From IMG/VR virus record IMGVR_UViG_3300030060_004020, positions 15,639 to 78,324 of that record: a DNA stretch of 62,686 bases; one strand, given 5' to 3'. This document shows positions 40,842 through 62,393 of this stretch, piece after piece (the stretch's first letter is position 1; every line of letters starts with the position of its first letter). The notes under the pieces were generated by a model. The model made no database searches and had not been told where the DNA came from. It was given only the letters and a program-made list of their open reading frames with translations. The DNA comes from a virus. Position numbers and translations under genes: made by a program.

Positions 40842-41125
40842 CACAATTTCTTACATGCTAGACATTTAGGTGTTGTGATTCTACCTTTGCATTGGTCACA
40901 ATTATGTCTTGATTTGAAATTAGCCCTGCGCTTTTTGTTGGTATGAGTTCCGCCTCCTCTATTCTTTCCTTTACCTTTGTAATTGCCATATCCTTTAGCA
41001 CCCGCATGAATCTTTTTTCCTTCATGAGTAAGCATCATAATTTTTTTACCTGCTCTATCGGAAGGATATACTCGACCTACTCTCATGTCTTTCTTATCTT
41101 TTTTACACACATCGAACCAAGTCAT
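40838..41125 (-). CDS. W-tagged basic zinc-ribbon protein
   Basis: 95 residues, start MTWFDVCKKDKKDM (tag W-F-D-V-C-K). A glycine- and lysine-rich middle (KGYGNYKGKGKNRGGGTHTN, KKRRANFKSRH) leads to a C-terminal zinc ribbon CDQCKGRITTPKCLACKK. Overlaps both neighbours by four to seven bases. The basic, zinc-bearing body suggests nucleic-acid binding, perhaps as a DNA-associated virion protein. Confidence 0.55.
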   Translation of the reverse strand: MTWFDVCKKDKKDMRVGRVYPSDRAGKKIMMLTHEGKKIHAGAKGYGNYKGKGKNRGGGTHTNKKRRANFKSRHNCDQCKGRITTPKCLACKKLW

Positions 41126-41526
41126 TGTTTACCCCTCATTTGATTTTCTTTAGAACGCTTATCGTCTTTTATCGGGCCACCTTTAGCCCATGTTCTACAA
41201 GACCTAGCAGAATGACATTTGAAATGGTGCATCCAACAATAACCTAGTTTACCATCATCATCTAATTCTAACGGCATACATTTTTCCATTCGAGGAGATA
41301 TATCAAACGCTACACAATTACTACAGTTAGAATCCATAGCGGCATCTACCGATGTATTCCAAAAGTCTGCAATCTCTTCCCAATACCCTTCGGGCTTCTT
41401 TACATTAAGTGGGCCATATTGTATATGTTCTGCTTTTATGGCGGCATTTCTATTCTCAGTGTTTAACTTCAAATCCTGTGTTGCTCTAGGACATTCTAGT
41501 TGTTTAAGAATAATGTGCCAAGTCAT
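41122..41526 (-). CDS. W-tagged Cys-rich protein
   Basis: 134 residues from ATG 41526, four bases after the upstream stop; a longer frame to 41562 would overlap that gene. Starts MTWHIILKQLECPRATQDLK. The body has at least eight Cys: NCSNCVAFDI, EKCMPLELDDDGKLGYCWMHHFKCHSARSCRTWAKGG. This spacing (C..C...C......GyCw.h.f.C...sC..w) is found in small viral proteins thought to bind a metal or Fe-S cluster. Not identified more closely. Confidence 0.55.
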   Translation of the reverse strand: MTWHIILKQLECPRATQDLKLNTENRNAAIKAEHIQYGPLNVKKPEGYWEEIADFWNTSVDAAMDSNCSNCVAFDISPRMEKCMPLELDDDGKLGYCWMHHFKCHSARSCRTWAKGGPIKDDKRSKENQMRGKQ

Positions 41527-41530
41527 AAAA

Positions 41531-41947
41531 TCATCTCGGACTATGTGTGTAAATATCTCCATCTTTGTGCATGAATATTTTACCTTCTTTTTCTAATTTC
41601 TTCAAGGCCGCTTTAATCTCAGTTTCCTTTCCAAATTGTTTTAGGTTTTTCATTCCTAATGCTCCGCCCTCTTTCTTAATTTCTCTTAAGATTTGACGCT
41701 CTAATTTTGCTGTCTTCATTCTAGGACTAATGTTCATGAAGTCTGTCATTTCTTCGGGGTCTTTACCAAAAATAGATTTCTTAACCTTTCTTCGTTTAAG
41801 TTCATCAAAATCTGCAACTGTTATTTTTCCTTTCGGTTTAGCCACATCTAATTCTTTCTGCCCACCATAAAGCATCTTTTCATCTTCTTTATGAGTTCCA
41901 CAATGGGCTTTCTCTTCTTCTGTTTTTAGTATATATTTCCAATTCAT
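41531..41947 (-). CDS. W-tagged winged-helix-like protein
   Basis: 138 residues, start MNWKYILKTEEEKAHCG. The C-terminal 65 residues (KLERQILREIKKEGGALGMK, IKAALKKLEKEGKIFMHKDGDIY) have the helix-helix-wing pattern of a winged helix-turn-helix. A linker with VADFDELKRRKVKKSIFGKDPEE joins it to the tag. A DNA-binding protein that could be carried in the virion. ATGA-type overlap with the next gene. Confidence 0.55.
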   Translation of the reverse strand: MNWKYILKTEEEKAHCGTHKEDEKMLYGGQKELDVAKPKGKITVADFDELKRRKVKKSIFGKDPEEMTDFMNISPRMKTAKLERQILREIKKEGGALGMKNLKQFGKETEIKAALKKLEKEGKIFMHKDGDIYTHSPR

Positions 41948-42297
41948 CTTGTAAACGCTCCTCTACTTCTGCTCTTTGTTTTTTGCTTACTCGCTTCCTT
42001 TCTTTGTTTAGCGTAAGTATGTGCCGCTTTTAGCCTTTTCTTAGTATCGGGGTCTTTAGCATTTTTAACTGCGGCTCGTAATCTTTGCTCCACTAAATTA
42101 ATTATTTGTGATTGTCTTTTATGAGACTTAGATTTGAATGCACTACTACTAAATGTTTCTTGAACATCTTTTCTTGTTTTAAATTTTACAGGAACAGTAT
42201 CTTTTGGGTTTTCATCTGTGTATAATCTTCTTGCTGAACCTTTTGGTTTTTTACCCGTTCCCTTTTTCGGGTCAGTCTTTAAGATATTTTGCCACAT
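41944..42297 (-). CDS. W-tagged basic protein (MWQNILK)
   Basis: 117 residues from ATG 42297; a GTG at 42306 overlapping the upstream stop would add three residues. Starts MWQNILKTDPKKGTGKKPKG. Body basic and helical (RKDVQETFSSSAFKSKSHKR, VEQRLRAAVKNAKDPDTKKRLKAAHTYAKQRKEASKQ-type). The C-terminus is Lys/Arg/Ser-rich. One of a run of tagged basic proteins upstream of the portal, likely DNA-associated. Confidence 0.5.
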   Translation of the reverse strand: MWQNILKTDPKKGTGKKPKGSARRLYTDENPKDTVPVKFKTRKDVQETFSSSAFKSKSHKRQSQIINLVEQRLRAAVKNAKDPDTKKRLKAAHTYAKQRKEASKQKTKSRSRGAFTR

Positions 42298-42302
42298 AAT
42301 AA

Positions 42303-42572
42303 TCACTTTTGACTAAACTTTTTTCCTGTCGGAACATGCTGAATACCTTTCTTACGACCCTTTCTTTTCTTAGCGTCTTGATACCTTAGAGTTTTTTTAT
42401 CTGTTCTTTGATAAGTTGCTCTCGGCATATATCTTCCTTTAGTTCTTGACTTAGGCTTCTTTCCTTTTGCTTTCGCTCTATGCTGTTCGGCACTTCCCCA
42501 ATCTTCTTGTGTCCATTGGGTTAAATCCTGTTGCCTTTTTGATTTGGCTTTTAGGATATTCCACCATCTAAT
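42303..42572 (-). CDS. W-tagged basic protein with unclear start (RWWNILK)
   Basis: About 89 residues. The tag appears as I-R-W-W-N-I-L-K-A-K. The only in-frame codon that places W at the usual position is ATT at 42572, overlapping the upstream TAG (ATTAG), with GGTGG about eleven bases before. An ATG at 42611 exists but would overlap the previous gene by 44 bases. Body strongly basic (RAKAKGKKPKSRTKGRYMPR, RYQDAKKRKGRKKGIQHV). Probable DNA-binding mini-protein. The start is a guess. Confidence 0.45.
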   Translation of the reverse strand: MRWWNILKAKSKRQQDLTQWTQEDWGSAEQHRAKAKGKKPKSRTKGRYMPRATYQRTDKKTLRYQDAKKRKGRKKGIQHVPTGKKFSQK

Positions 42573-53600: not shown

Positions 53601-54719
53601 TCAACTCCATAAATATTCATGCCATGACTTTTGTATGTCATCCTTTGGAACTTTTAATCCTTTTAGATTTAGATGCTCGCCCCATGCTAACTTCTTTGAC
53701 TTACCCTTTCCAACAACCGCTACGATAAGTGATGACATAGCAGTTGCTTTGAAAGGCTTTAATGAAAATGTTTTGATTTGACCCGCAGGTGGTTCTATAC
53801 CTGCTATCTTTGAAAGTGCCTCTTTACTTGTTTTTTTGTTATCTAATGTAAACTTCATACCCGAAAAAGTGCTTGCCATTTCTGCCAACTTAGGAACTCC
53901 ATTTTTCTTAAACAAGGTTTTTCTTTTTAGTAATCCCAATACATGCTTTCTAACAGGTGGGAAAATTGCTAACTTAGAAGGTAACTTAACCTGCAAGTGC
54001 ATATTCTCAATTGCTTTATTTGATTCTGCCAAAGCAATCTTCAATATATCTTTTAATCCAACTTTAATCAAATCACCCCTACCGAAAAGGGCTTGAGCCA
54101 AAGGTGGGTTAGCCGTATTTGGTGTATCACTATACCATGTTGGAGGTGCTTTCTTTCCATATTTTTTCTTATACCACTCATTTGCATAGTGGCCGTAAAC
54201 TTTGTCTTTCTCTTTACCTATGGCATTACCATCAGCATCCGACTTTGCAGGAAAATTAAATACAGTATTTTTAGGATTTAAGGTGCTTGTTGCTTCTTCA
54301 AAACCTTCAATAGCATCTTGGAATTCTTGTAGTTTTTTTACATGGCTTACTAACAGAATCTTATCTTCTTTGAATTCTTCCATAAATTCTTCTATGTCAT
54401 CTAATAGAGTAAATGCTCCTGTGCTTCCCCTATTTGGCGACCTATCCCTTCTATATCCGCTAGTTACATGCTCTTTCAATTGTAAATATAGATTAGCAGG
54501 GTGAGGCTGTCCACTCTTAGTATCTATTTGTCCAACCTTCTTTCCCTCTCTAGGTTTTCTAATTCTTCTACCTTCACTAAGTAATTTTTTCCTACCTATG
54601 CCTTGACACTTCTTAACCCAAGCCTCATACTCATCAATAAACTTGAATGAACCTCTAACTTCAATATCAGTGCTTCCAACCTTAATCACGGACTTTTTCT
54701 TCTCGTCTTTTCTTACCAC
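53601..54719 (-). CDS. Unknown 372-residue late protein
   Basis: Start taken at GTG 54719, which has GGAGG eight bases upstream; GTG 54728 would sit inside that site. N-terminal basic region (GRKKLLSEGRRIRKPREGKK), then ANLYLQLKEHVTSGYRRDRS, a helical middle and a C-terminal part rich in Lys and Ala (LAIFPPVRKHVLGLLKRKTL). Overlaps the upstream tagged gene by 38 bases. No family recognised. It is the largest protein inside the tagged cluster and has no N-terminal tag. Confidence 0.5.
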   Translation of the reverse strand: MVRKDEKKKSVIKVGSTDIEVRGSFKFIDEYEAWVKKCQGIGRKKLLSEGRRIRKPREGKKVGQIDTKSGQPHPANLYLQLKEHVTSGYRRDRSPNRGSTGAFTLLDDIEEFMEEFKEDKILLVSHVKKLQEFQDAIEGFEEATSTLNPKNTVFNFPAKSDADGNAIGKEKDKVYGHYANEWYKKKYGKKAPPTWYSDTPNTANPPLAQALFGRGDLIKVGLKDILKIALAESNKAIENMHLQVKLPSKLAIFPPVRKHVLGLLKRKTLFKKNGVPKLAEMASTFSGMKFTLDNKKTSKEALSKIAGIEPPAGQIKTFSLKPFKATAMSSLIVAVVGKGKSKKLAWGEHLNLKGLKVPKDDIQKSWHEYLWS

Positions 54720-55173
54720 GCTTTCCACCTCCGTATTTTATATTGAATAGTTCGGGGTTAGCCCCATGACTACCAAAAGAATATCCCCCTGCTTTTTTTT
54801 CAAAAGTATCTCCATCAGTTTTTTTAGTCCTTTCAATCAGTTTGTCTAAATCCTGTTCTATTGGATAAAGGGCATCATTAGCGTGATATTGCTCAATGCG
54901 AGGCAAATCCTCGATTAGTTTTTTTAGTTCTTCAATTCGATTCTTTAATTTGTCTGCTCGCTGTTTAAAGTTAATGGGTTCTCTTTTAGGCTTAAATTGT
55001 TTTCCACTAGGTTGTTTTCGTTGTGACTTTGGTGTAGTTGGAAAAGCCTTTGGTTTTTCTTTACTTTCCTTTTGGGCAGGTCTTGAATAAAATTTACTAG
55101 TGTCTATTTCACCACGCTTTTTCCTTTTAGGAATTTTTATTTCTCTATTCTTTACTATATTTTGCCAACTCAT
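54682..55173 (-). CDS. W-tagged basic protein, 163 residues
   Basis: Starts MSWQNIVKNREIKIPKRKKR. Long basic, Pro-rich stretch (AFPTTPKSQRKQPSGKQFKP), then a helix (ADKLKNRIEELKKLIEDLPR) and a Gly-rich basic end (GGGKRGKKRREEKVRD). Only the first eight residues resemble the other tagged proteins. Likely nucleic-acid-binding. Confidence 0.55.
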   Translation of the reverse strand: MSWQNIVKNREIKIPKRKKRGEIDTSKFYSRPAQKESKEKPKAFPTTPKSQRKQPSGKQFKPKREPINFKQRADKLKNRIEELKKLIEDLPRIEQYHANDALYPIEQDLDKLIERTKKTDGDTFEKKAGGYSFGSHGANPELFNIKYGGGKRGKKRREEKVRD

Positions 55174-55185
55174 GTCAAACCCTCT

Positions 55186-55485
55186 TTAATCATCTAAAGC
55201 AATAGTCATTATTTTTTCTATTTGTTTTTCAAGTCCTTCTATCGTTTTATTCATTGACTCTCTTTTTTCAGCATCAAAATCTTTACTCATCGTTTGTAAT
55301 TTCTTGATTGTTTTCTTTAGTTCATCCACTCTTTTCAAAAAGTAACTCATGTCTCTTTTATCTTGACCTCTAATTGCTTTGCCCTTTAGTCTTCTTCTTT
55401 CCAAAGCCCTTTGCTTTCTTCTGTCAATTTTATCTTTCTCTCGTTCAAAACGACTATCTTCTTTAATTATATTTTCCCAACTCAT
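55186..55485 (-). CDS. W-tagged coiled-coil protein, 99 residues
   Basis: Starts MSWENIIKEDSRFEREKDKI. Basic middle (DRRKQRALERRRLKGKAIRG) and a coiled coil (RVDELKKTIKKLQTMSKDFD, MNKTIEGLEKQIEKI). The tag W-E-N-I-I-K-E-D is close to that of the 47-residue protein (W-Q-D-I-I-K-E-D). One-base gap to the upstream gene. Confidence 0.55.
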   Translation of the reverse strand: MSWENIIKEDSRFEREKDKIDRRKQRALERRRLKGKAIRGQDKRDMSYFLKRVDELKKTIKKLQTMSKDFDAEKRESMNKTIEGLEKQIEKIMTIALDD

Positions 55486-55486
55486 A

Positions 55487-55714
55487 TCAAGCCCTCGCTA
55501 AACTTCCAATTATTCTCTTAATGCTATCCATAGTAGTCTTATGCAATCTATGATATTCTCCGGCAATATCTTCAAATTCATCAGCATCAATCATTTCTTC
55601 ACCTTGATACTGCCTAACAATCTCATCCAACTCTTTCAAAACATCTCTTTGTTTGCCAAAGTTATCAATGGCATTTTGCGTAGTGTTACGCTTTAGAATA
55701 CTTTGCCATGTCAT
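55487..55714 (-). CDS. W-tagged helical protein, 75 residues
   Basis: Starts MTWQSILKRNTTQNAIDNFG; helical remainder (QRDVLKELDEIVRQYQGEEM, DEFEDIAGEYHRLHKTTMDS). ATGA overlap with the upstream tagged gene. No family recognised. Confidence 0.55.
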   Translation of the reverse strand: MTWQSILKRNTTQNAIDNFGKQRDVLKELDEIVRQYQGEEMIDADEFEDIAGEYHRLHKTTMDSIKRIIGSLARA

Positions 55715-55977
55715 TTCTTACCACCCTTTCTTTCTATTCTATTTATGTAGTATTCAAGAGTTTTAAGGCTATCTTTATCTCCTGTTTCTAAGTATTCTTC
55801 TTCTTCCATTCTAACAACCATATCTTCATTTTTATTATCTATTGGCAGTAGTGCTTCTAATCTTCTTTTTAAATTAACATATTCTGGATTTGAAGCATAC
55901 ATATCTTTCGGTGCATATTTTCTACCAAGCCTTCTTGCTTCTCTTATGTCTATTTTAAGAATAGTTTGCCAAGTCAT
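55711..55977 (-). CDS. W-tagged protein, 88 residues
   Basis: Starts MTWQTILKIDIREARRLGRK. Contains YAPKDMYASNPEYVNLKRRL and a charged C-terminal helix (LKTLEYYINRIERKGGKK). The tag is followed by an Arg/Lys-rich helix as in several siblings. Ten bases separate it from the upstream stop. Confidence 0.55.
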   Translation of the reverse strand: MTWQTILKIDIREARRLGRKYAPKDMYASNPEYVNLKRRLEALLPIDNKNEDMVVRMEEEEYLETGDKDSLKTLEYYINRIERKGGKK

Positions 55978-55987
55978 TTTAAAACAC

Positions 55988-56221
55988 CTACTTTCTTTTT
56001 GCTTTTAATTCGTTGAATAGTTTAACAATATATTCCGACAACTCATTTAATCTTTCAACAACTTCTTCTACTTCTTCGTAGTGTTCACCAAGTTCCATAA
56101 TGTTCATCGGTAACTGACCCTTTTCTTTTAGTTTCTCTAAGTAGTCCATAAACTCTTCATGTTCTTTTATGGCTTCTAATAATTCAGCCTCATTGCCTTT
56201 TAGAACATCTTGCCAAGCCAT
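55988..56221 (-). CDS. W-tagged acidic helical protein, 77 residues
   Basis: ATG 56221 is used: the upstream stop ends at 56223 and a longer frame to 56257 would overlap it. Starts MAWQDVLKGNEAELLEAIKE; the rest is an acidic coiled coil (HYEEVEEVVERLNELSEYIV). Unlike most siblings it is acidic, so the tag is not tied to DNA-binding bodies. Confidence 0.55.
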   Translation of the reverse strand: MAWQDVLKGNEAELLEAIKEHEEFMDYLEKLKEKGQLPMNIMELGEHYEEVEEVVERLNELSEYIVKLFNELKAKRK

Positions 56222-56222
56222 A

Positions 56223-56495
56223 TTAATCATCTCTTTTAAACGGATTAAATGGCACATCTCTTCTTCTTCTTCTTCTATCCTTTCTTCCGATAGTTGCCTT
56301 TCTTTTTTTATCTTCTTGAATTATTCTAGCCATTTCTTCTTTTGTAGGTAGTGGCTTTGGCTCCTTTACCTTTGTTGGTTTAGGCTCTTTAGGAATAAAC
56401 TCCCTTTCGCTTTCACTGTCTATTTTCCGTTGTTGTGCTTCTCTAACTTTTTTAGAATCTCTAGGATTCCTCTTTACTATATCTTTCCAACTCAT
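56223..56495 (-). CDS. W-tagged basic protein, 90 residues
   Basis: Starts MSWKDIVKRNPRDSKKVREA. Charged, Pro- and Lys-rich body (EFIPKEPKPTKVKEPKPLPT) with an Arg run (KDRRRRRRDVPFNPFKRDD) at the C-terminus. Probably disordered and DNA-binding. Confidence 0.55.
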   Translation of the reverse strand: MSWKDIVKRNPRDSKKVREAQQRKIDSESEREFIPKEPKPTKVKEPKPLPTKEEMARIIQEDKKRKATIGRKDRRRRRRDVPFNPFKRDD

Positions 56496-56507
56496 TTCTT
56501 ATCACCT

Positions 56508-56858
56508 TTAATTATATATCTCACTTGCTATTTTCTTCATTCGTTCATCAAGTTCTTTAGTGGCTTTTTCGTATTCTTGCCTTATTTTCTTTTGATTTTC
56601 TTCATATTGTTTATTATCAAAATCGTCATTACCACCATATTTTGAATAATCTCCGTGATATTTCCTTTTCAATCCCATTTTTATATTTCTCATTTCTTCG
56701 GATATTTTTTCCATCTCGATTTCGCCAGCCTTTATTCTAGCATTCACCGCCCTGTCTTCTTGTTTTTTCTTTTTAGCCTCTCTTTTGAGTTCTTTTTTAT
56801 GTCGTTTTGTTCGTCTATCAGTATAGTAACTACTTTTCAATACATCTTCCCAACTCAT
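56508..56858 (-). CDS. W-tagged basic helical protein, 116 residues
   Basis: Starts MSWEDVLKSSYYTDRRTKRH, with the same first seven residues as the 97-residue tagged protein near 34.5 kb (MSWEDVLK), 22 kb away. Body: KKELKREAKKKKQEDRAVNA, IEMEKISEEMRNIKMGLKRK, YEKATKELDERMKKIASEIY, a charged coiled coil. ATGA overlap with the upstream mini-gene. Confidence 0.55.
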   Translation of the reverse strand: MSWEDVLKSSYYTDRRTKRHKKELKREAKKKKQEDRAVNARIKAGEIEMEKISEEMRNIKMGLKRKYHGDYSKYGGNDDFDNKQYEENQKKIRQEYEKATKELDERMKKIASEIYN

Positions 56859-56962
56859 TTCTTACCACCTGTAATAAAATCTTTCTTGGTTTTCTTTTCT
56901 GTTTCATCAATCTTCTTTGACTGAACATCAAACCAAGCATCTAAGTTATTGCACCTTGTCAT
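56855..56962 (-). CDS. 35-residue mini-protein with tag-like WFDV
   Basis: MTRCNNLDAWFDVQSKKIDE, then TEKKTKKDFITGGKK, ending in the TGA that overlaps the next tagged ATG. RBS AGGTG lies six bases before the ATG, and it exactly fills a gap between two tagged genes. W-F-D-V occurs at residue 10, as in MTWFDVCKK, but the following residues differ. Supported by RBS, overlap and spacing. Confidence 0.5.
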   Translation of the reverse strand: MTRCNNLDAWFDVQSKKIDETEKKTKKDFITGGKK

Positions 56963-56971
56963 ATTTTTCAC

Positions 56972-57403
56972 CTACTCAAATGTAATAGCAATATTATCTA
57001 ATGTCAATCCATCTCCGTCTTTTACCAATTCAGCATCTATGTAAGGAATTAAAGTCATAGGTAATTCCTTAGTGTTAAAATTCATATCTACTTGAAAATC
57101 ATCTACTACAACATCTTTATCTTGTATGTCCCATTCCTCATTAGCCGCATCAAAATCCTTATCAAAAGAAGCATCTACTCCTACTACAGTAATTTTGTCA
57201 ATATTCGGCTCTTGAATATATACTGAATCATCACTATGCTCAAGAGTCAAACTCCAATTAATTATTACTCTTTCATAATCAGTTTCATAGACACCTTTTC
57301 CACCAGTAATAGAATGCAATCTACCATCTTTACGCTTCTCAAGTTCAGTAGTATATGTAAAGTCTTGAACTCTCGCTTTACGAATAGCGTTTTTCCATGT
57401 CAT
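56972..57403 (-). CDS. W-tagged beta-rich protein, 143 residues
   Basis: Starts MTWKNAIRKARVQDFTYTTE (ATG 57403; AGGTGA just upstream; a GTG nine bases earlier is inside that site). Beta-rich body: RVIINWSLTLEHSDDSVYIQ, IDKITVVGVDASFDKDFDAA, VVVDDFQVDMNFNTKELPMT, and a C-terminal LTLDNIAITFE. Similar in layout to the tagged protein at 53255-53596. Probably a small beta-sandwich delivered or assembled through the tag. Confidence 0.55.
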   Translation of the reverse strand: MTWKNAIRKARVQDFTYTTELEKRKDGRLHSITGGKGVYETDYERVIINWSLTLEHSDDSVYIQEPNIDKITVVGVDASFDKDFDAANEEWDIQDKDVVVDDFQVDMNFNTKELPMTLIPYIDAELVKDGDGLTLDNIAITFE

Positions 57404-57687
57404 ATTATTCACCTATATACTTTCTTCAAGAGGGGTTTTATCTTCATATACTTTAGTCGCATAAAAAAGCGGGTCGTCGCCTTCCCTTTCTAAATCCATC
57501 AAATAATCGTCAAATGTTCTTGATTTATCCCTAAGTTCCATTATTCTATCAACCATTTCATTAGCCTCTTTTAGAGTTAATGTTCCTCTATCCATACCTT
57601 CTTCTAATTTATCTAACAATTCAAAACCCTCTTTCATCGTAGCACTTGTTCTTTTTAGTATATCTTCCCATGTCATATTATTCACCT
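57395..57687. repeat. 20-base start-region repeat of two W-tagged genes
   Basis: The sequence CCATGTCATATTATTCACCT occurs at 57395-57414 and 57668-57687. On the minus strand it reads AGGTGAATAATATGACATGG: ribosome-binding site, ATG and the first two tag codons (T, W). Beyond it the two genes differ completely. Confidence 0.8.
57413..57676 (-). CDS. W-tagged helical protein, 87 residues
   Basis: ATG 57676, with a ribosome-binding and start region of 20 bases identical to that of the next gene. Starts MTWEDILKRTSATMKEGFEL; helical acidic body (LDKLEEGMDRGTLTLKEANE, MVDRIMELRDKSRTFDDYLM). No family recognised. Confidence 0.55.
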   Translation of the reverse strand: MTWEDILKRTSATMKEGFELLDKLEEGMDRGTLTLKEANEMVDRIMELRDKSRTFDDYLMDLEREGDDPLFYATKVYEDKTPLEESI

Positions 57688-57730
57688 TTTATTTTAGACG
57701 ACTTTTTCAAAAATTTTTCTAGGAATTTTT

Positions 57731-57961
57731 TTAACTCCTACTATATCCGGTTTTTGAAACGCTAATCTTAGCACCGTTTACATCTGCGTATGTTAGTGGC
57801 GTTCCGCTTTTTTGTTGAGCGATTCTATTCAATTCATATTCAAAATCATTTTGAACTTGTTTATTAGGCAAACCTTGCATATCTGCTAATGTTTTTCTAT
57901 AAAACTGTTCAGCATCGTTTTCATATCTTATGTTTTTTCTAATCATATCTTTCCAATTCAT
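57731..57961 (-). CDS. W-tagged protein, 76 residues, first of the tagged run
   Basis: Starts MNWKDMIRKNIRYENDAEQF. Body NKQVQNDFEYELNRIAQQKS then TYADVNGAKISVSKTGYS. It is the promoter-proximal member of the long leftward run; about 118 bases of non-coding DNA with a TATA-like box lie upstream. Confidence 0.55.
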   Translation of the reverse strand: MNWKDMIRKNIRYENDAEQFYRKTLADMQGLPNKQVQNDFEYELNRIAQQKSGTPLTYADVNGAKISVSKTGYSRS

Positions 57962-58331: not shown

Positions 58332-58487
58332 GCAACAACCTCCTTTAACAGGTCGTAGTAAGATAAGGGTAATAAATGTAGTAGTTTTATGGGTTAATAT
58401 GTTATACACAGTAGTTAATAGGTCAAAATTAACGATGAATGCTTATATTATTCAAATTAATAAAGAATAAAAAATTTTGGAACAAAG

Positions 58488-58554
58488 CCATATGGTTGTA
58501 GAGCAACCGATTAACAAGCATATGGTTCACTTTGAGAACACGAATTATATATTA
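58488..58554 (+). promoter_or_regulatory. Cassette promoter A
   Basis: CATATGGTTCACTTTGAGAA (58519-58538) followed seven bases later by TATA box TTATATATTA (58545-58554). A second CCATATGG stands at 58488-58495, and GGTTG/CAACC (58494-58498, 58504-58508) forms a short hairpin. It drives the zinc-ribbon gene at 58579, with the start codon about 30 bases from the TATA centre. First of seven related promoters. Confidence 0.75.
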
Positions 58555-58578
58555 TATCTATATTAAAGGGTAGAAAGA

Positions 58579-59010
58579 GTGATTAAAATGGTATGTGAAG
58601 AATGCGGAAAAGCGAGTGAATATAATTTGTGTGTTGAATGTGTTAGAGACTTAGACGAAGATGACAGATTTGAACGCTTTATGCAAGCAGAAGAAATGGT
58701 AATGCCAAAAGACCCAAGAGAAAGGCAAGAATATCAATGCCCTAAGTGCAATGGCTTAGACTGTATCTATGGCGATTTTGTTTTGAATGACTGGGAAGAG
58801 TTTAAACCTAAATTAACACCGACTGATAATGATATGTGGTGCCAATACTCGTATAACGGTGAAATAGTACAAGGTAATACCTTACTTGATGAAATTCAAG
58901 AGTTATCTTTCGCTTGTACTAAATGCGGCTATAATTTCAATGGTGATGATGAGGAACTCAATGAGAACATAGTTACTGTCATAGAGGCTTATAGGTGGGA
59001 TGATGAATGA
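58579..59010 (+). CDS. Multi-zinc-ribbon protein
   Basis: 143 residues from GTG 58579, or 140 from ATG 58588; both lie where the TATA box predicts the transcript start, so the mRNA may be leaderless. Cys pairs: CEEC (7-10 region), CVEC, CPKCNGLDC and CTKCGYNF, i.e. two zinc ribbons or a treble set, in an acidic protein (ERFMQAEEMVMPKDPRERQE). Overlaps the next gene by ATGA. Likely an early regulatory or nucleic-acid-binding protein; family not recognised. Confidence 0.65.
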   Translation: MIKMVCEECGKASEYNLCVECVRDLDEDDRFERFMQAEEMVMPKDPRERQEYQCPKCNGLDCIYGDFVLNDWEEFKPKLTPTDNDMWCQYSYNGEIVQGNTLLDEIQELSFACTKCGYNFNGDDEELNENIVTVIEAYRWDDE

Positions 59011-59201
59011 TAGGAATTAAAGGTTGGGCAGTTTGGAATAATGAGGCTTGGTGTGTGGAATATGAAAACCTATACCGCACAAAAGAAGAGGCTATGAAGG
59101 CGGCTAAAAAGCACTATAGTTACATTGGAGACACTGAAGAAGACTATGGCGACCACATGGTGTGTGAAATTAAAATAACAGTTCATTTTTCTTTATTTTG
59201 A
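59007..59201 (+). CDS. Small protein of cassette A
   Basis: 64 residues, ATGA-coupled to the zinc protein. MIGIKGWAVWNNEAWCVEYE then NLYRTKEEAMKAAKKHYSYI and a C-terminal EIKITVHFSLF: a strand, helix, strand layout with several Trp. No family recognised. Followed by terminator 1. Confidence 0.55.
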   Translation: MIGIKGWAVWNNEAWCVEYENLYRTKEEAMKAAKKHYSYIGDTEEDYGDHMVCEIKITVHFSLF

Positions 59202-59212
59202 TTTAAGCGGTT

Positions 59213-59258
59213 AAAAAACAACCCTGTATTTAGGTGCAGGGTTGTTTTTCCTTTTTTT
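59213..59258 (+). terminator. Terminator 1 (copy 1 of an identical pair)
   Basis: AAAAACAACCCTG (59214-59226) and CAGGGTTGTTTTT (59237-59249) pair perfectly over 13 bp, loop TATTTAGGTG, then CC and seven T. The whole element recurs base for base at 59692-59738. Confidence 0.92.
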
Positions 59259-59261
59259 CGA

Positions 59262-59340
59262 GGTTTGGTGTCGTTATATATTATAACGGTGATTGTGACA
59301 CCAAACCATATGGTTTACTTTGGAATACCCGTTTCATATA
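59262..59340 (+). promoter_or_regulatory. Inverted repeat and cassette promoter B
   Basis: Arms GGTTTGGTGTC (59262-59272) and GACACCAAACC (59297-59307) with an inner palindrome CGTTATATATTATAACG, then ATAT, the box GGTTTACTTTGGAA and TATA box CATATA (59335-59340). ATG 59361 lies about 24 bases from the TATA centre, so the transcript is probably leaderless. Confidence 0.75.
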
Positions 59341-59360
59341 GTTATATAGAGATAGTATGC

Positions 59361-59678
59361 ATGTCAAGCGTAATAGACAAATTTGAGCAAGAATTAAAGG
59401 ACAACAATGTAGTTAAGTATGTACAATCAACAAATCAAAATATCAATCCTAAAAAAATAACTGAAATGTTAAATCGTAGGACTACACTACATAAAATAAT
59501 TAATGTTATGAAACAAATGAATTTGAGTGAGTCAATTTGGAATAAATTTAATCATGAAGAAATTGAAGAAATAGCAACAGCATTTCACGCTGTTATAGAT
59601 GAATTCAAGGAAGATAGTGAGGCACTATTCCAAACTGTCCAAGATTGGGAAGATTGGGCAGATAGGCGACCTTATTGA
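59361..59678 (+). CDS. Small helical protein of cassette B
   Basis: 105 residues. The start at ATG 59361 is set by the promoter: an earlier in-frame start at 59265 would lie upstream of the TATA box. Sequence SSVIDKFEQELKDNNVVKYV, ITEMLNRRTTLHKIINVMKQ, FNHEEIEEIATAFHAVIDEF and an end VQDWEDWADRRPY. All-helical, no family recognised. Ends before terminator 2. Confidence 0.6.
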   Translation: MSSVIDKFEQELKDNNVVKYVQSTNQNINPKKITEMLNRRTTLHKIINVMKQMNLSESIWNKFNHEEIEEIATAFHAVIDEFKEDSEALFQTVQDWEDWADRRPY

Positions 59679-59691
59679 GGTCAAAACGGTC

Positions 59692-59738
59692 AAAAAAACA
59701 ACCCTGTATTTAGGTGCAGGGTTGTTTTTCCTTTTTTT
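59692..59738 (+). terminator. Terminator 2 (copy 2 of an identical pair)
   Basis: Same 13-bp stem, loop and T run as terminator 1: AAAAACAACCCTG (59694-59706) with CAGGGTTGTTTTT (59717-59729). The identity over about 46 bases while the flanking genes differ implies recent copying or gene conversion. Confidence 0.92.
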
Positions 59739-59743
59739 ATTGA

Positions 59744-59820
59744 GGTTTGAGGTCGTTTTTATTAACTTACAAGATAGTAACCTCAAACCATATGGTTCAC
59801 TTTGAGAACTCAGTTCTTAT
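59744..59820 (+). promoter_or_regulatory. Inverted repeat and cassette promoter C
   Basis: Arms GGTTTGAGGT (59744-59753) and ACCTCAAACC (59780-59789), then ATAT and GGTTCACTTTGAGAAC, then TATA-like TTCTTATAC (around 59815). Spacing predicts a start near 59841, leaving a leader of about 40 bases, unlike the leaderless cassettes. Confidence 0.72.
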
Positions 59821-59841
59821 ACCAAACCATAGATAGGAGGT

Positions 59842-59880
59842 GCTTCAAGGGGTTGAAGTGTAATTATCATTGAGGTGAAA
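59842..59880 (+). promoter_or_regulatory. 5' leader hairpin of paralog 1
   Basis: CTTCAA (59843-59848) pairs with TTGAAG (59853-59858) around GGGG, at the predicted 5' end of the mRNA. The RBS GAGGTGA lies further down. The paralogous gene at 61648 has a matching hairpin at the same distance from its promoter box. Confidence 0.6.
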
Positions 59881-59883
59881 ATT

Positions 59884-60360
59884 ATGAATTTGGAAAAACT
59901 AGAAACTAATAGAAATAACATACGAACATGGATGAAAGAAAATGAAAGCCCGCTTAATGATGCTTTAGAGGGTCTACTCACAGCATCGGAGTTGGCTAAA
60001 ACTGATGATGAAGCGGTCAAGTATTGGTCGTCAATTCGTTCACTTTGTGGCAACATGAGTCCTTCTCCTGTTAGAAAAGGTGTGCAATCAAAATACTCTA
60101 CTGAGGTTTTGGCAGTATTAGACGCTATTGGAACAGAAGTTGATGAGGCTTCAGTTCGCTACCATAACGACGGTATTATGTCTAAGGTATTGTTTTCTCA
60201 CGGTAAATCCGGCGGAAAACAAATGCTAGCAGAAGTATTTGGAAAGACTATGAGAAACATGACCATTGGAAAACTTAAGAAAAAGTTGGATGATGGTATA
60301 TGGGATGGAACTCTAGCCGGTTTAGACTCCTTGACCGAAATAACGGAGGATAATGAGTGA
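59884..60360 (+). CDS. Cassette paralog 1 (YWxSIRxxCGN family)
   Basis: 158 residues from ATG 59884 (GAGGTGA six bases upstream). Shared with the protein at 61648: YWSSIRSLCGNMSPSPVRKG versus YWGSIRQMCGNLPNSPIRKG, EVLAVLDAI versus EAQAVVDSV, and DDGIWDGTL versus KDGRWDGTL. Alpha-helical, no known family. Both genes have a leader hairpin and a large branched 3' stem-loop, so they form a module with an RNA element. Binding of the protein to its own RNA is a plausible but untested role. Confidence 0.7.
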   Translation: MNLEKLETNRNNIRTWMKENESPLNDALEGLLTASELAKTDDEAVKYWSSIRSLCGNMSPSPVRKGVQSKYSTEVLAVLDAIGTEVDEASVRYHNDGIMSKVLFSHGKSGGKQMLAEVFGKTMRNMTIGKLKKKLDDGIWDGTLAGLDSLTEITEDNE

Positions 60361-60395
60361 TTAACATTTCAACCCCTTGTTGCCCCTACTCCCGA

Positions 60396-60491
60396 TTAGG
60401 CCGAATAGTGAAACTACTCTTACAGTGCAGTAAATAAGCACTTCTTAAGAGATTTGAAAAAATAGTTTCACTATTCGGTCTAAGTTTTTTT
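60396..60491 (+). terminator. Large branched 3' stem-loop of paralog 1
   Basis: A 21-bp stem (60396-60416 with 60463-60483, one G-U wobble) encloses an inner hairpin: CTCTTA (60417-60422) with TAAGAG (60446-60451) and AGTGC (60424-60428) with GCACT (60438-60442). A T run follows at 60485-60491. It is preceded by TTGTTGCCCCTACT, a phrase also found downstream of paralog 2. Far larger than a simple terminator needs to be. Confidence 0.8.
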
Positions 60492-60497
60492 ATTTAG

Positions 60498-60580
60498 GGT
60501 TTGATGCGGCCTACGGCCTAAATGTTTAAAGAACATTTCATCAAACCATATGGTTTACTTTGAGAACCTGATTCATATAT
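60498..60580 (+). promoter_or_regulatory. Inverted repeat and cassette promoter D
   Basis: Arms GGTTTGATG (60498-60506) and CATCAAACC (60539-60547); inside lie GGCC/GGCC and a perfect hairpin AAATGTT/AACATTT, so the element can fold as a three- or four-way junction. Then ATAT, GGTTTACTTTGAGAAC and TATA box CATATAT (60574-60580). ATG 60600 is about 23 bases from the TATA centre: leaderless. Confidence 0.75.
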
Positions 60581-60599
60581 CTATTGGTATAGAGATAGC

Positions 60600-60959
60600 A
60601 TGCGAAAGATAACAAAAGACGCAGTAAGAGCATTTGAACAGCACAAGAAATTTAAGAGAGGAAATACGACGGTTGAAGTTAGTGAAAGTAAATTATTTGC
60701 CGAACTAAAACTACACGGCAACACAATAGCCAAGAGTGGAGTATTTGAGGGCTTAATGATTTCATCAGCCGGTTGGAATACTGTAACAACTAAGGAACGC
60801 TTGAACGGCCTTGAAGGTGTAAACATCCATCAAAAGGACTTCACATGGTATCTTAACGGCCGTGAGTGGAATGGTGCTTGGGTTGATGTTGGAACTTGGA
60901 ATTTATTAGATAAATTCCCCAATAAAACCTATAATTATTCGATGCACTACCTTAACTAA
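60600..60959 (+). CDS. Widespread mobile-element small protein (RLNGL/WYLNG family)
   Basis: 119 residues. The layout MRKITKDAVRAFEQHKKFKR, NTTVEV, LFAELKLHGNTIAKS, ISSAGWNTVTTKERLNGLEG, VNIHQKDFTWYLNGREWNGA WV is that of a small protein family very common in bacterial phages and plasmids, of unknown function. Finding it in a virus with archaeal promoters points to exchange across domains. Single-gene cassette: leaderless promoter D before, two hairpins after. Confidence 0.7.
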   Translation: MRKITKDAVRAFEQHKKFKRGNTTVEVSESKLFAELKLHGNTIAKSGVFEGLMISSAGWNTVTTKERLNGLEGVNIHQKDFTWYLNGREWNGAWVDVGTWNLLDKFPNKTYNYSMHYLN

Positions 60960-60970
60960 TTATGAACTAA

Positions 60971-61030
60971 TATAGTCTGAGGACTATAACTGCCTTCCTT
61001 GCCCTTTCGGGGGCAGGGTTGGCTTTTTTT
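60971..61030 (+). terminator. Double hairpin terminator of cassette D
   Basis: First hairpin TATAGTC (60971-60977) with GACTATA (60982-60988), loop TGAG. Second hairpin in 60992-61023, GCC..CCTTGCCC with GGGCAGG..GGC, followed by T8. The second stem plus T run is the terminator proper. Confidence 0.8.
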
Positions 61031-61033
61031 TGG

Positions 61034-61114
61034 GGTTGTGAGTAATGTATTTTATAATACTAGGAGAGTATTACTCACAACCATATGGTTCACTTTCGGA
61101 ATACAGATTATATA
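61034..61114 (+). promoter_or_regulatory. Inverted repeat and cassette promoter E (non-coding RNA)
   Basis: Arms GGTTGTGAGTAAT (61034-61046) and ATTACTCACAACC (61070-61082), 13 bp, inner hairpin GTATT/AATAC, then ATATGGTTCACTTTCGGAA and TATA box TTATATA (61108-61114). The expected start is near 61138, exactly before the first stem of the structured region, and no open frame follows. Confidence 0.75.
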
Positions 61115-61137
61115 CCAAACAACAAGGAGGTTAATGT

Positions 61138-61500
61138 AGGGCGACACCTTCGGGTGGTGCGGTCTTATGAAACATGAGCGAGGCGACTGTGCATAGTCGC
61201 TACTCTTTGAGTGTAATTAAAACACGATGAACTGTGTTCGCAATAAGGTGAATTAGACCTATCTTTATGTTGAGGTGACGACCTCTTAACCTGCACGATA
61301 TTCCAATGGCTATTAGTGGCCATAACACCATTGAGAAACAAAGGCGAAAGTCAAAGTTGAAAATGTAAGACGGCAGGATATAGAAAGAGATTGTAAGTCA
61401 TACCAATACTAGTTGGGACTAGTATGACCTCTCATCAAACATGCTAAGTATCACGCATTCCCTTGCTTTGAACGAGTAGCCGGAGTTTCTCATTTTTTTA
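61138..61500 (+). ncRNA. Candidate structured non-coding RNA, about 360 nt
   Basis: No credible coding frame, own promoter, and dense secondary structure. Helices visible: CACC-UUCG-GGUG (61145-61156, a UUCG tetraloop); GCGACT/AGTCGC (61183-61188, 61195-61200); GAGGT-GACG-ACCTC (61272-61285); CAATGG/CCATTG (61304-61309, 61328-61333); ATACTAGT-TGGG-ACTAGTAT (61406-61425). Long-range pairs: CCTGC (61290) with GCAGG (61373), and CTACTC (61200) with GAGTAG (61474). A T7 run at 61493-61499 may end it. It does not show the conserved cores of RNase P, SRP, tmRNA or group I introns that I could test by eye. GC is higher than around it. Confidence 0.7.
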
Positions 61501-61504
61501 TTGA

Positions 61505-61581
61505 GGTTTGGCATCGTTATTATTACTTTACTGGTAGTAATGCCAAACCATATGGTTCACTTTGAGAACTTGAATTATATA
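61505..61581 (+). promoter_or_regulatory. Inverted repeat and cassette promoter F
   Basis: Arms GGTTTGGCAT (61505-61514) and ATGCCAAACC (61540-61549), then ATAT, GGTTCACTTTGAGAAC, and TATA box TTATATA (61575-61581). Spacing places the transcript start near 61603, at the foot of the leader hairpin of paralog 2. Confidence 0.75.
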
Positions 61582-61601
61582 CTATTAGACAAAGAGAAGT
61601 T

Positions 61602-61645
61602 GCTTCACAGGGTATGAAGTGAACTTACAAACATCGGAGAGATAA
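61602..61645 (+). promoter_or_regulatory. 5' leader hairpin of paralog 2
   Basis: CTTCA (61603-61607) pairs with TGAAG (61615-61619), loop CAGGGTA. Same position relative to promoter box as the hairpin of paralog 1 (32 bases after GAGAACT) and the same flanking GCTTCA..GAAGTG. RBS GGAGAG follows at 61636. Confidence 0.6.
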
Positions 61646-61647
61646 AT

Positions 61648-62157
61648 ATGATGGAATATAGTAAATTAATTAGCAAAACAGACGATATATTGACATGGCT
61701 TGATGTTAATGATGCAGGTGCTTTAGATAGTGCCATTCGAGGCATCATTGCAGTTGCTAGAGTCGAAGGACAAACAGAAAAACAATACGGTAACTATTGG
61801 GGTAGTATTCGCCAAATGTGCGGAAACCTCCCAAACTCACCAATCCGCAAAGGAACACAACCGTCGCTACCTGTAGAAGCACAAGCAGTTGTGGATTCTG
61901 TAATGACTCAAGTGCAAACTGCCTTTGCGGGTATTACTGAAAACACTGACCTACTTCTTGAAGTAGTGCTACCTTTTAGAAATACAACTGGTAAAGGATT
62001 TGAGTCTATGGATGACCTAGCCGCATATTTGGCGGGTCGAGCCAAAGATGCTTTAGTCAAGGCTCACAAAGATGGTCGTTGGGATGGTACTCTTAACGAT
62101 GGACTAACAGGTATGACTCCCCCTCAACCTGCATCAAAGAAGGAGGATAGCGAGTAA
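61648..62157 (+). CDS. Cassette paralog 2 (YWxSIRxxCGN family)
   Basis: 169 residues from ATG 61648 (GGAGAG upstream; ATG 61651 is also possible). Paralog of the protein at 59884: shared YWxSIRxxCGN, SPxRKGxQ and WDGTL. It has an insertion of about ten residues (GKGFESMDDLAAYLAGRAKD) and a Pro-rich end (MTPPQPASKKEDSE). Helical, no known family. Same cassette plan: leader hairpin, gene, TGTTGCCCCT phrase, branched 3' stem-loop. Confidence 0.7.
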   Translation: MMEYSKLISKTDDILTWLDVNDAGALDSAIRGIIAVARVEGQTEKQYGNYWGSIRQMCGNLPNSPIRKGTQPSLPVEAQAVVDSVMTQVQTAFAGITENTDLLLEVVLPFRNTTGKGFESMDDLAAYLAGRAKDALVKAHKDGRWDGTLNDGLTGMTPPQPASKKEDSE

Positions 62158-62207
62158 GGCTAACTGATTACCCTGTGTTGCCCCTCTACTAAATAAATTC
62201 GACAAAT

Positions 62208-62308
62208 TAGCACCCAAAGGACATTACAACTCATACAGTCAAGAGAGTTCACGACTTCTTATGAGATAGTAAAAAATAAAGTGTCCTTTGGGTGTCTATG
62301 CTTTTTTT
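62208..62308 (+). terminator. Large branched 3' stem-loop of paralog 2
   Basis: Outer stem CACCCAAAGGACA (62211-62223) with TGTCCTTTGGGTG (62282-62294), inner stem CTCATA (62230-62235) with TATGAG (62260-62265), innermost AGTC (62237-62240) with GACT (62253-62256), T7 at 62302-62308. Same plan as the element after paralog 1. The inner helix differs by a compensatory change (CTCTTA/TAAGAG there, CTCATA/TATGAG here), direct evidence that the structure is kept. Confidence 0.8.
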
Positions 62309-62314
62309 ATGCAG

Positions 62315-62393
62315 GGTTTGAGGCGTAGAATAATATTCAACAAAAGAATGTGCCTCAAACCATATGGTTCACTTTCGGAACACAATTGATATA
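62315..62393 (+). promoter_or_regulatory. Inverted repeat and cassette promoter G
   Basis: Arms GGTTTGAGGC (62315-62324) and GCCTCAAACC (62352-62361), then ATAT, GGTTCACTTTCGGAA and TATA-like GATATA (62388-62393). ATG 62414 is about 24 bases from the TATA centre: leaderless. Confidence 0.75.

Follow-up and report, generated by a model that had tools for sequence, protein, structure and literature searches.

Why should a virus carry two copies of a small protein gene that are matched in the RNA around them as well as in the protein? The question is raised by genes a and b, which lie in the window, that is, the whole stretch of 62,686 nucleotides (nt) that was analysed (bases 15639-78324 of the 78,324-base virus record IMGVR_UViG_3300030060_004020). 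Comparison with related viruses reveals a previously undescribed viral RNA circuit, in which matching letters in separate RNAs changed in step. It is held with slightly better than even confidence that a trans-acting viral RNA controls a set of paralogous messenger RNAs (mRNAs), as a post-transcriptional circuit of a family of uncultured archaeal viruses; searches of the open-access literature turned up no account of trans-acting RNAs in archaeal viruses of this kind.

Genes a and b and the pairing of their messenger ends

An initial annotation, made from the letters of the window, had called the two genes paralogous, and this was borne out by BLASTP (31% identity, E 1e-21). Profile searches identified the protein family in about 20 virus contigs. 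Most contigs of sufficient length held at least one a/b-type copy in an array of small units, each unit following a AACCATATGGTT palindrome and a TATA-like box, together with one copy of a third paralog, c, which lay upstream of a helicase gene in several viruses; all three loci encode homologous proteins. The features of genes a and b in the window are as follows (aa, amino acids; P1 and P2, the two helices described below; c-RNA, an element encoded beside gene c).

59786..59797, + strand: AACCATATGGTT palindrome before the gene a promoter; the same palindrome precedes other array units
59814..59821, + strand: gene a TATA-like box TTCTTATA; centre 28 nt before P1, a spacing alike in most copies
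59846..59861, + strand: gene a P1 5' strand CAAGGGGTTGAAGTGT; predicted at or near the transcript 5' end
59884..60360, + strand: gene a, 158-aa protein of a new all-helical family
60364..60379, + strand: gene a P1 3' strand ACATTTCAACCCCTTG, directly after the stop codon
60379..60386, + strand: gene a P2 site GTTGCCCC; complements the c-RNA loop GGGGCAAC of relatives G001 and G009
60396..60484, + strand: gene a branched 3' stem, then T-run 60485-60491 (terminator)
61546..61557, + strand: AACCATATGGTT palindrome before the gene b promoter
61574..61581, + strand: gene b TATA-like box ATTATATA
61606..61614, + strand: gene b P1 5' strand CACAGGGTA; CACGGGGTA in the near relative G001, where the other strand compensates
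61648..62157, + strand: gene b, encoding a further member of the family of 168/169 aa; modelled with six helices
62169..62177, + strand: gene b P1 3' strand TACCCTGTG
62177..62184, + strand: gene b P2 site GTTGCCCC, identical to that of gene a
62209..62298, + strand: gene b branched 3' stem, then T-run 62302-62308 (terminator)

The extreme 5' end of each mRNA was complementary to the sequence directly after its own stop codon, forming the helix P1 (59846-59861 with 60364-60379 for gene a; 61606-61614 with 62169-62177 for gene b). P1 was present in all 29 a/b gene copies examined, from 16 virus contigs, and the most divergent relatives (N088-N090) keep it. The duplex averaged -38.4 kcal/mol with its own partner, against -21.0 kcal/mol when partners were swapped among the 29 copies; in 22 copies the own partner was the best, and in six the second best. 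Uninterrupted cores of 10 base pairs (bp) or longer occurred in 23 of 29 copies compared with 0.7% of shuffles, and a P1-like core of that length was seen in only 3 of 264 other open reading frames (ORFs) of the same regions. When 21 mRNAs were folded in silico, the mean pairing probability of P1 was 0.99. The helix also covaried: the gene b pair CACAGGGTA/TACCCTGTG in the window is replaced by CACGGGGTA/TACCCCGTG in G001.

In most copies P1 started approximately 28 nt past the centre of the TATA-like box, and its 5' strand is therefore probably the very start of the transcript. This bears on the leader hairpin of the initial annotation. CTTCA..TGAAG does occur in both leaders at an equal distance from the promoter box; however, P1 lies near +1 if archaeal spacing is as usual, so that the CTT arm is possibly initiator DNA and the RNA may not contain the hairpin as such. 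At its other end P1 typically stopped 22-46 nt upstream of the start codon. Sequestration of the ribosome site by P1 was considered and rejected, as in silico folding of 21 genes gave that site a mean unpaired probability of 0.51 in the full-length RNA and 0.50 once the 3' arm was removed.

A partner strand encoded in trans

The initial annotation had also noted that TGTTGCCCCT is common to both post-stop regions. This proved correct, but the shared letters belong to a site that is longer and falls into two halves. The first is reverse-complementary to the leader of the same gene and makes P1; the second, which adjoins the P1 3' strand (60379-60386 and 62177-62184), consists of GTTGCCCC or a variant and is the reverse complement of an RNA loop encoded in trans, as seen in relatives. 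This second helix was designated P2. Every virus with a recognisable c-RNA held the complement of its P2 site in a stem-enclosed loop downstream of the c gene, and where a virus had two a/b genes, both carried that virus's version of the site (gene b of G004 with one G-U pair). The helix was 7-10 bp long, and the pairs (target:c-RNA) were as follows.

G001: GTTGCCCC:GGGGCAAC
G007: GTTGCCAC:GTGGCAAC
G008: GTTGCGCC:GGCGCAAC
G004: GTAGCCCC:GGGGCTAC
G002 and G003: AAGCCCC:GGGGCTT
N079 and N080: GTCGCCCC:GGGGCGAC
N081: GTTGCACC:GGTGCAAC
N082-N084: GGCCACC:GGTGGCC
Three further viruses, found later: GTCGCACCC:GGGTGCGAC; AGGCCCCT:AGGGGCCT; GTTGCACCC:GGGTGCGAC (one G-U)

When the eight c-RNAs were permuted among the eight clades, the true assignment was the best of all 40,320. 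The c-RNA segments used in this test had been located with the complement already known, and an independent check therefore matters. It was provided by three viruses that were fetched after the rule had been set and that held both partners: all three paired, using sequences not seen before. In nearly all regions scanned, the target occurred after the a/b stop codons and its complement a single time within the c-RNA, and both were seldom met elsewhere. Sequence and covariation establish P1 and P2 with their pairing partners, and also the c-RNA fold and the protein family; the letter-by-letter co-evolution of one small RNA and several mRNAs across many contigs defines them without experiment, and yields exact compensatory mutations that can be tested. 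The c gene was absent from the contigs of G005 and G006; from the docking sites of these two viruses, GGGGCC and AAGGCTAC are expected in the c-RNA loops.

The c-RNA itself is an element of 69-127 nt encoded downstream of the c gene. Its outer stem was kept among viruses while differing in sequence, and its antisense strand lay on the 5' side, mostly unpaired (probability 0.40-0.77), and was accompanied by one or more hairpins; fold z-scores were between -1.5 and -5.7. Automatic alignment of divergent versions was poor. Rfam 15 gave no match above the gathering threshold for the leader, the 3' element, the c-RNA or the ORF-less unit described below, only transfer RNAs (tRNAs) reaching it. A guide RNA of the H/ACA or C/D kind was rejected on inspection alone, the antisense being on one strand and no C/D boxes being seen.

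In several viruses the c-RNA directly follows a tRNA gene; in G002/G003 the order is reversed, the c-RNA being directly followed by a tRNA gene with an intron (L025 8401-8562). The adjoining tRNA genes suggest joint transcription and tRNA-type processing; in other viruses a TATA-like box was found upstream of the c-RNA. A long AT-rich non-coding stretch with repeats lies directly upstream of the c gene (L026 8720-9340; L025 7000-7500) and is a candidate replication origin.

Regulation weighed against other functions

The circuit would operate as follows, supposing all parts to be transcribed as described. The first nucleotides of each mRNA would pair with the stretch directly after its own stop codon, so that the ORF and the ribosome-binding site stay in a loop. 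Beside P1, which might also protect the 5' end, the mRNA would offer a C-rich strand for docking. One c-RNA per virus, with its closed outer stem and largely unpaired antisense loop, would bind the docking strand of both mRNAs and could act on all paralogs at once. We infer that this binding is regulatory, and likewise its sign; during infection its effect would most likely be on the timing, the amount or the stability of proteins a and b.

RNAs of the circuit are probably bound by the paralogous helical proteins. Family members are all-helical proteins of 150-186 aa with acidic tails, and AlphaFold gave the gene b protein a confident all-helical fold of six helices (mean predicted local distance difference test, pLDDT, 86.5; predicted template modelling score, pTM, 0.78). 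Searches of Pfam (no match above cut-off), PHROGs and PDB sequences gave no significant relative of the family. A Foldseek search with the modelled protein gave no PDB match and no recognised RNA-binding fold, and the two matches in BFVD were both unnamed viral proteins. A c-type profile detected no cellular homolog in one genome each of 84,980 species. A DIL domain match (E 0.012, below cut-off) was treated as chance. The C-terminal domain is reused in a G002/G003 protein encoded directly upstream of the ligase and head genes and beside the prohead-protease gene (L023:3644-4114), and it stands alone in ORFs of approximately 98 aa (L082 and L083, minus strand). This family, which has no known relative, thereby becomes open to tests for RNA binding.

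Several observations weigh against the circuit. Accessibility of the ribosome site was indifferent to the 3' arm and hence offers no direct route to repression. Folding of the mRNA did not leave the docking site clearly unpaired (0.02-0.56). Another helix, P3, between the leader CTTC and GAAG of the c-RNA, looked attractive by eye and would complete a three-way junction; it failed its permutation test, 7,128 of 40,320 permutations being at least as good, and the leader CTTC may sit outside the transcript, upstream of its start. The transcript start sites and the transcription of the c-RNA are themselves read from sequence. In N088-N090, the relatives that diverge most, a c-RNA could not be recognised. 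The contig of the window ends before the c-RNA locus, leaving its own c-RNA off the contig; the relative G009 begins with the ortholog of the window's last ORF, followed by the c gene and c-RNA, and the loop of the window virus is predicted to be AGGGGCAAC.

Trans-encoded small RNAs of bacteria act on 3' untranslated regions by short pairing to several mRNAs. The proposed circuit is alike in its short pairing to several mRNAs in trans; it differs in that the antisense lies inside a closed-stem RNA, the targets are paralogs of the gene adjacent to that RNA, and the target helix lies next to another covarying helix, which the two ends of the mRNA form between them. In ColE1, a small all-helical protein (Rop) is encoded together with two interacting RNAs (RNA I and RNA II). 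That arrangement recurs here, although no relation in sequence or fold was found between Rop and the present family, whose RNA binding is putative.

Regulation may not be the point at all if the a/b transcripts are bifunctional, with a coding loop inside a structural RNA, and form one particle with the c-RNA and the three paralogous proteins, which might serve packaging, virion assembly or host takeover; this, the main rival explanation, is unlikely but to be taken seriously. It would account for homologous proteins at all three loci, for an ORF left as a loop by P1 with the ribosome site unaffected, for the well-defined fold of the c-RNA, and for the C-terminal domain recurring upstream of ligase and head genes and as a small separate protein. 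The ORFs, however, are full-length and conserved as proteins, a P2 of 7-10 bp is typical of regulatory contacts, and the family has no recognised RNA-binding fold. It is doubtful to the same degree that this would be a new kind of viral ribonucleoprotein, with two or three end-closed mRNAs, a scaffold RNA acting in trans and their own encoded paralogous proteins upon them; if true, the messengers themselves would be structural parts of the machine. Were transcript stabilisation the sole function, P1 would bury the 5' end, the 3' stem would guard the other end and P2 would be an accessory clamp, in keeping with the fixed distance of P1 from the TATA-like box in most copies and with the stems and T-runs after most genes. 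This is very improbable, as it leaves unexplained both the covariation of the docking site with an RNA encoded kilobases away and the confinement of P1 to this gene family.

The end-to-end pairing and the antisense RNA follow the logic of hok/sok and aapA/IsoA, whose mRNAs combine a long-distance 5'-3' interaction with an antisense RNA (PMC8309996, PMC6733600). A comparable toxin-antitoxin pair of type I, with a and b toxic or growth-arresting, P1 as the fold-back of the full-length mRNA and the c-RNA as antitoxin, is nevertheless judged improbable. Two marks of type I were found, namely long-distance 5'-3' pairing within a coding mRNA and RNA-mRNA pairing with covariation across homologs, any antitoxin activity of the c-RNA being putative. 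Hiding of the ribosome site (in silico, 21 genes) and a small hydrophobic toxin peptide were not found: P1 ends well before the start codon and leaves accessibility unchanged, and the proteins are large, soluble, helical and acid-tailed. The antisense, moreover, is encoded elsewhere, is common to several paralogous mRNAs and pairs after the stop codon, and the setting is an archaeal virus. The likeness is in logic only and the circuit is not a hok/sok copy; rather, it supplies a new case in which the two ends of an mRNA pair, apparently without acting through concealment of the ribosome site. As for type III, which is marked by tandem RNA repeats upstream of an endoribonuclease gene, a repeat search found no tandem repeats near the genes, and there was no Pfam match above cut-off. 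Finally, the arms might belong to the DNA, as inverted repeats of a mobile or recombining cassette with only incidental similarity at the c locus. They do flank the gene, and other array units have variable inverted repeats beside the AACCATATGGTT palindrome; yet in nearly all copies they lie between TATA box and ORF and between stop and terminator, at a fixed spacing from the TATA box, and their complementarity reaches a third strand kilobases away, with G-U pairs in places. This explanation is disfavoured and hardly credible.

The branched 3' stem, the virus and its other units

The initial annotation had centred on a branched stem at the 3' end of both genes, and its description was accurate. 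Both transcripts end in a large stem before a T-run, with 29-nt arms that are 86% complementary in gene a (60396-60483) and 13 perfect bp in gene b (62211-62294), and the inner helix CTC-W-TA/TA-W-GAG shows the T-A to A-T swap reported. Two further two-sided changes were found in the apical hairpin, while a third covaried in one sequence and was broken in two. The covariance model that had been recommended was built and searched against 281 kb, comprising only loci fetched because of the protein. It matched 60396-60484, 62209-62298 and the relatives G001, G007 and G008 (L026, L064, L065), always beside the protein gene and directly before a T-run, and nowhere else. The element is therefore real but confined to four related viruses, those from which the model was built, in terminator position; it was absent from the other a/b genes. 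Seven T residues directly follow the stem of gene a and come a few bases after that of gene b, and a T-run follows most copies. Stem and T-run are as in an intrinsic terminator; what differs is that, in four viruses, a conserved and branched inner helix with an A-rich strand lies within the stem. The annotation had itself allowed that the structures might act only as terminators, and by that standard the stem is weak evidence, because its distribution is narrow and it sits where a terminator should; it is a terminator decoration. The wider suggestion of a ribonucleoprotein or autoregulated module was right in spirit, since RNA features do track the family across approximately 20 contigs, although these are P1 and P2 and not the element singled out. 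P2 could not have been seen at that stage, because the partner RNA lies outside the window.

The major capsid protein of the window virus was closest to those of the haloarchaeal HCTV-1/HVTV-1 and of methanogen-associated viruses. The virus encodes an ATP-dependent ligase, a prohead protease and a terminase, and a close relative has a UvrD-like helicase. Its gene content is in keeping with tailed, magrovirus-like viruses of Poseidoniales (PMC12999244, PMC13108676); such viruses, of abundant surface-ocean Poseidoniales, are known solely from metagenomes (PMC12999244). Capsid, ligase, prohead protease and the relative's helicase are points of likeness to Magrovirales/Adrikavirales, whereas the a/b/c family occurs in no described genome of the phage collection.

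Within the array (58486-62369), a variable inverted repeat running into the fixed AACCATATGGTT palindrome separates the units; the palindrome stays the same and the stem sequence changes between units, which gives the impression that every promoter has a hairpin or cruciform of its own. The gene between a and b (60600-60959) matched Pfam Kyano_Gp96 (E 1e-17), a family named from cyanobacterial viruses, and PHROG 554. A unit that has the promoter palindrome but no ORF, and that closes with a T-run, was found at 61110-61490, in L006 (2340-2850) and downstream of gene a in G008 (L065). Its 3' half is conserved (ATTCCAATGGCTATTAGTGGCCATAACACCATTGAGAAACAAAGGCGAAAGTC...) and its 5' half differs; it is probably another viral non-coding RNA. 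A unit of L025 (5713-5977, minus strand) gave a weak, sub-threshold match to manA RNA (28.3 bits against a gathering threshold of 55.2). Elsewhere in the window, on the minus strand (41122-42306 and 54682-57961), many unrelated small proteins have an N-terminal W-x-x-x-(I/L)-(K/R) in common, for example MSWEDVLK, MTWKNAIR, MNWKDMIR and MSWQNIVK; the motif resembles a tag for sorting or packaging that these proteins share.

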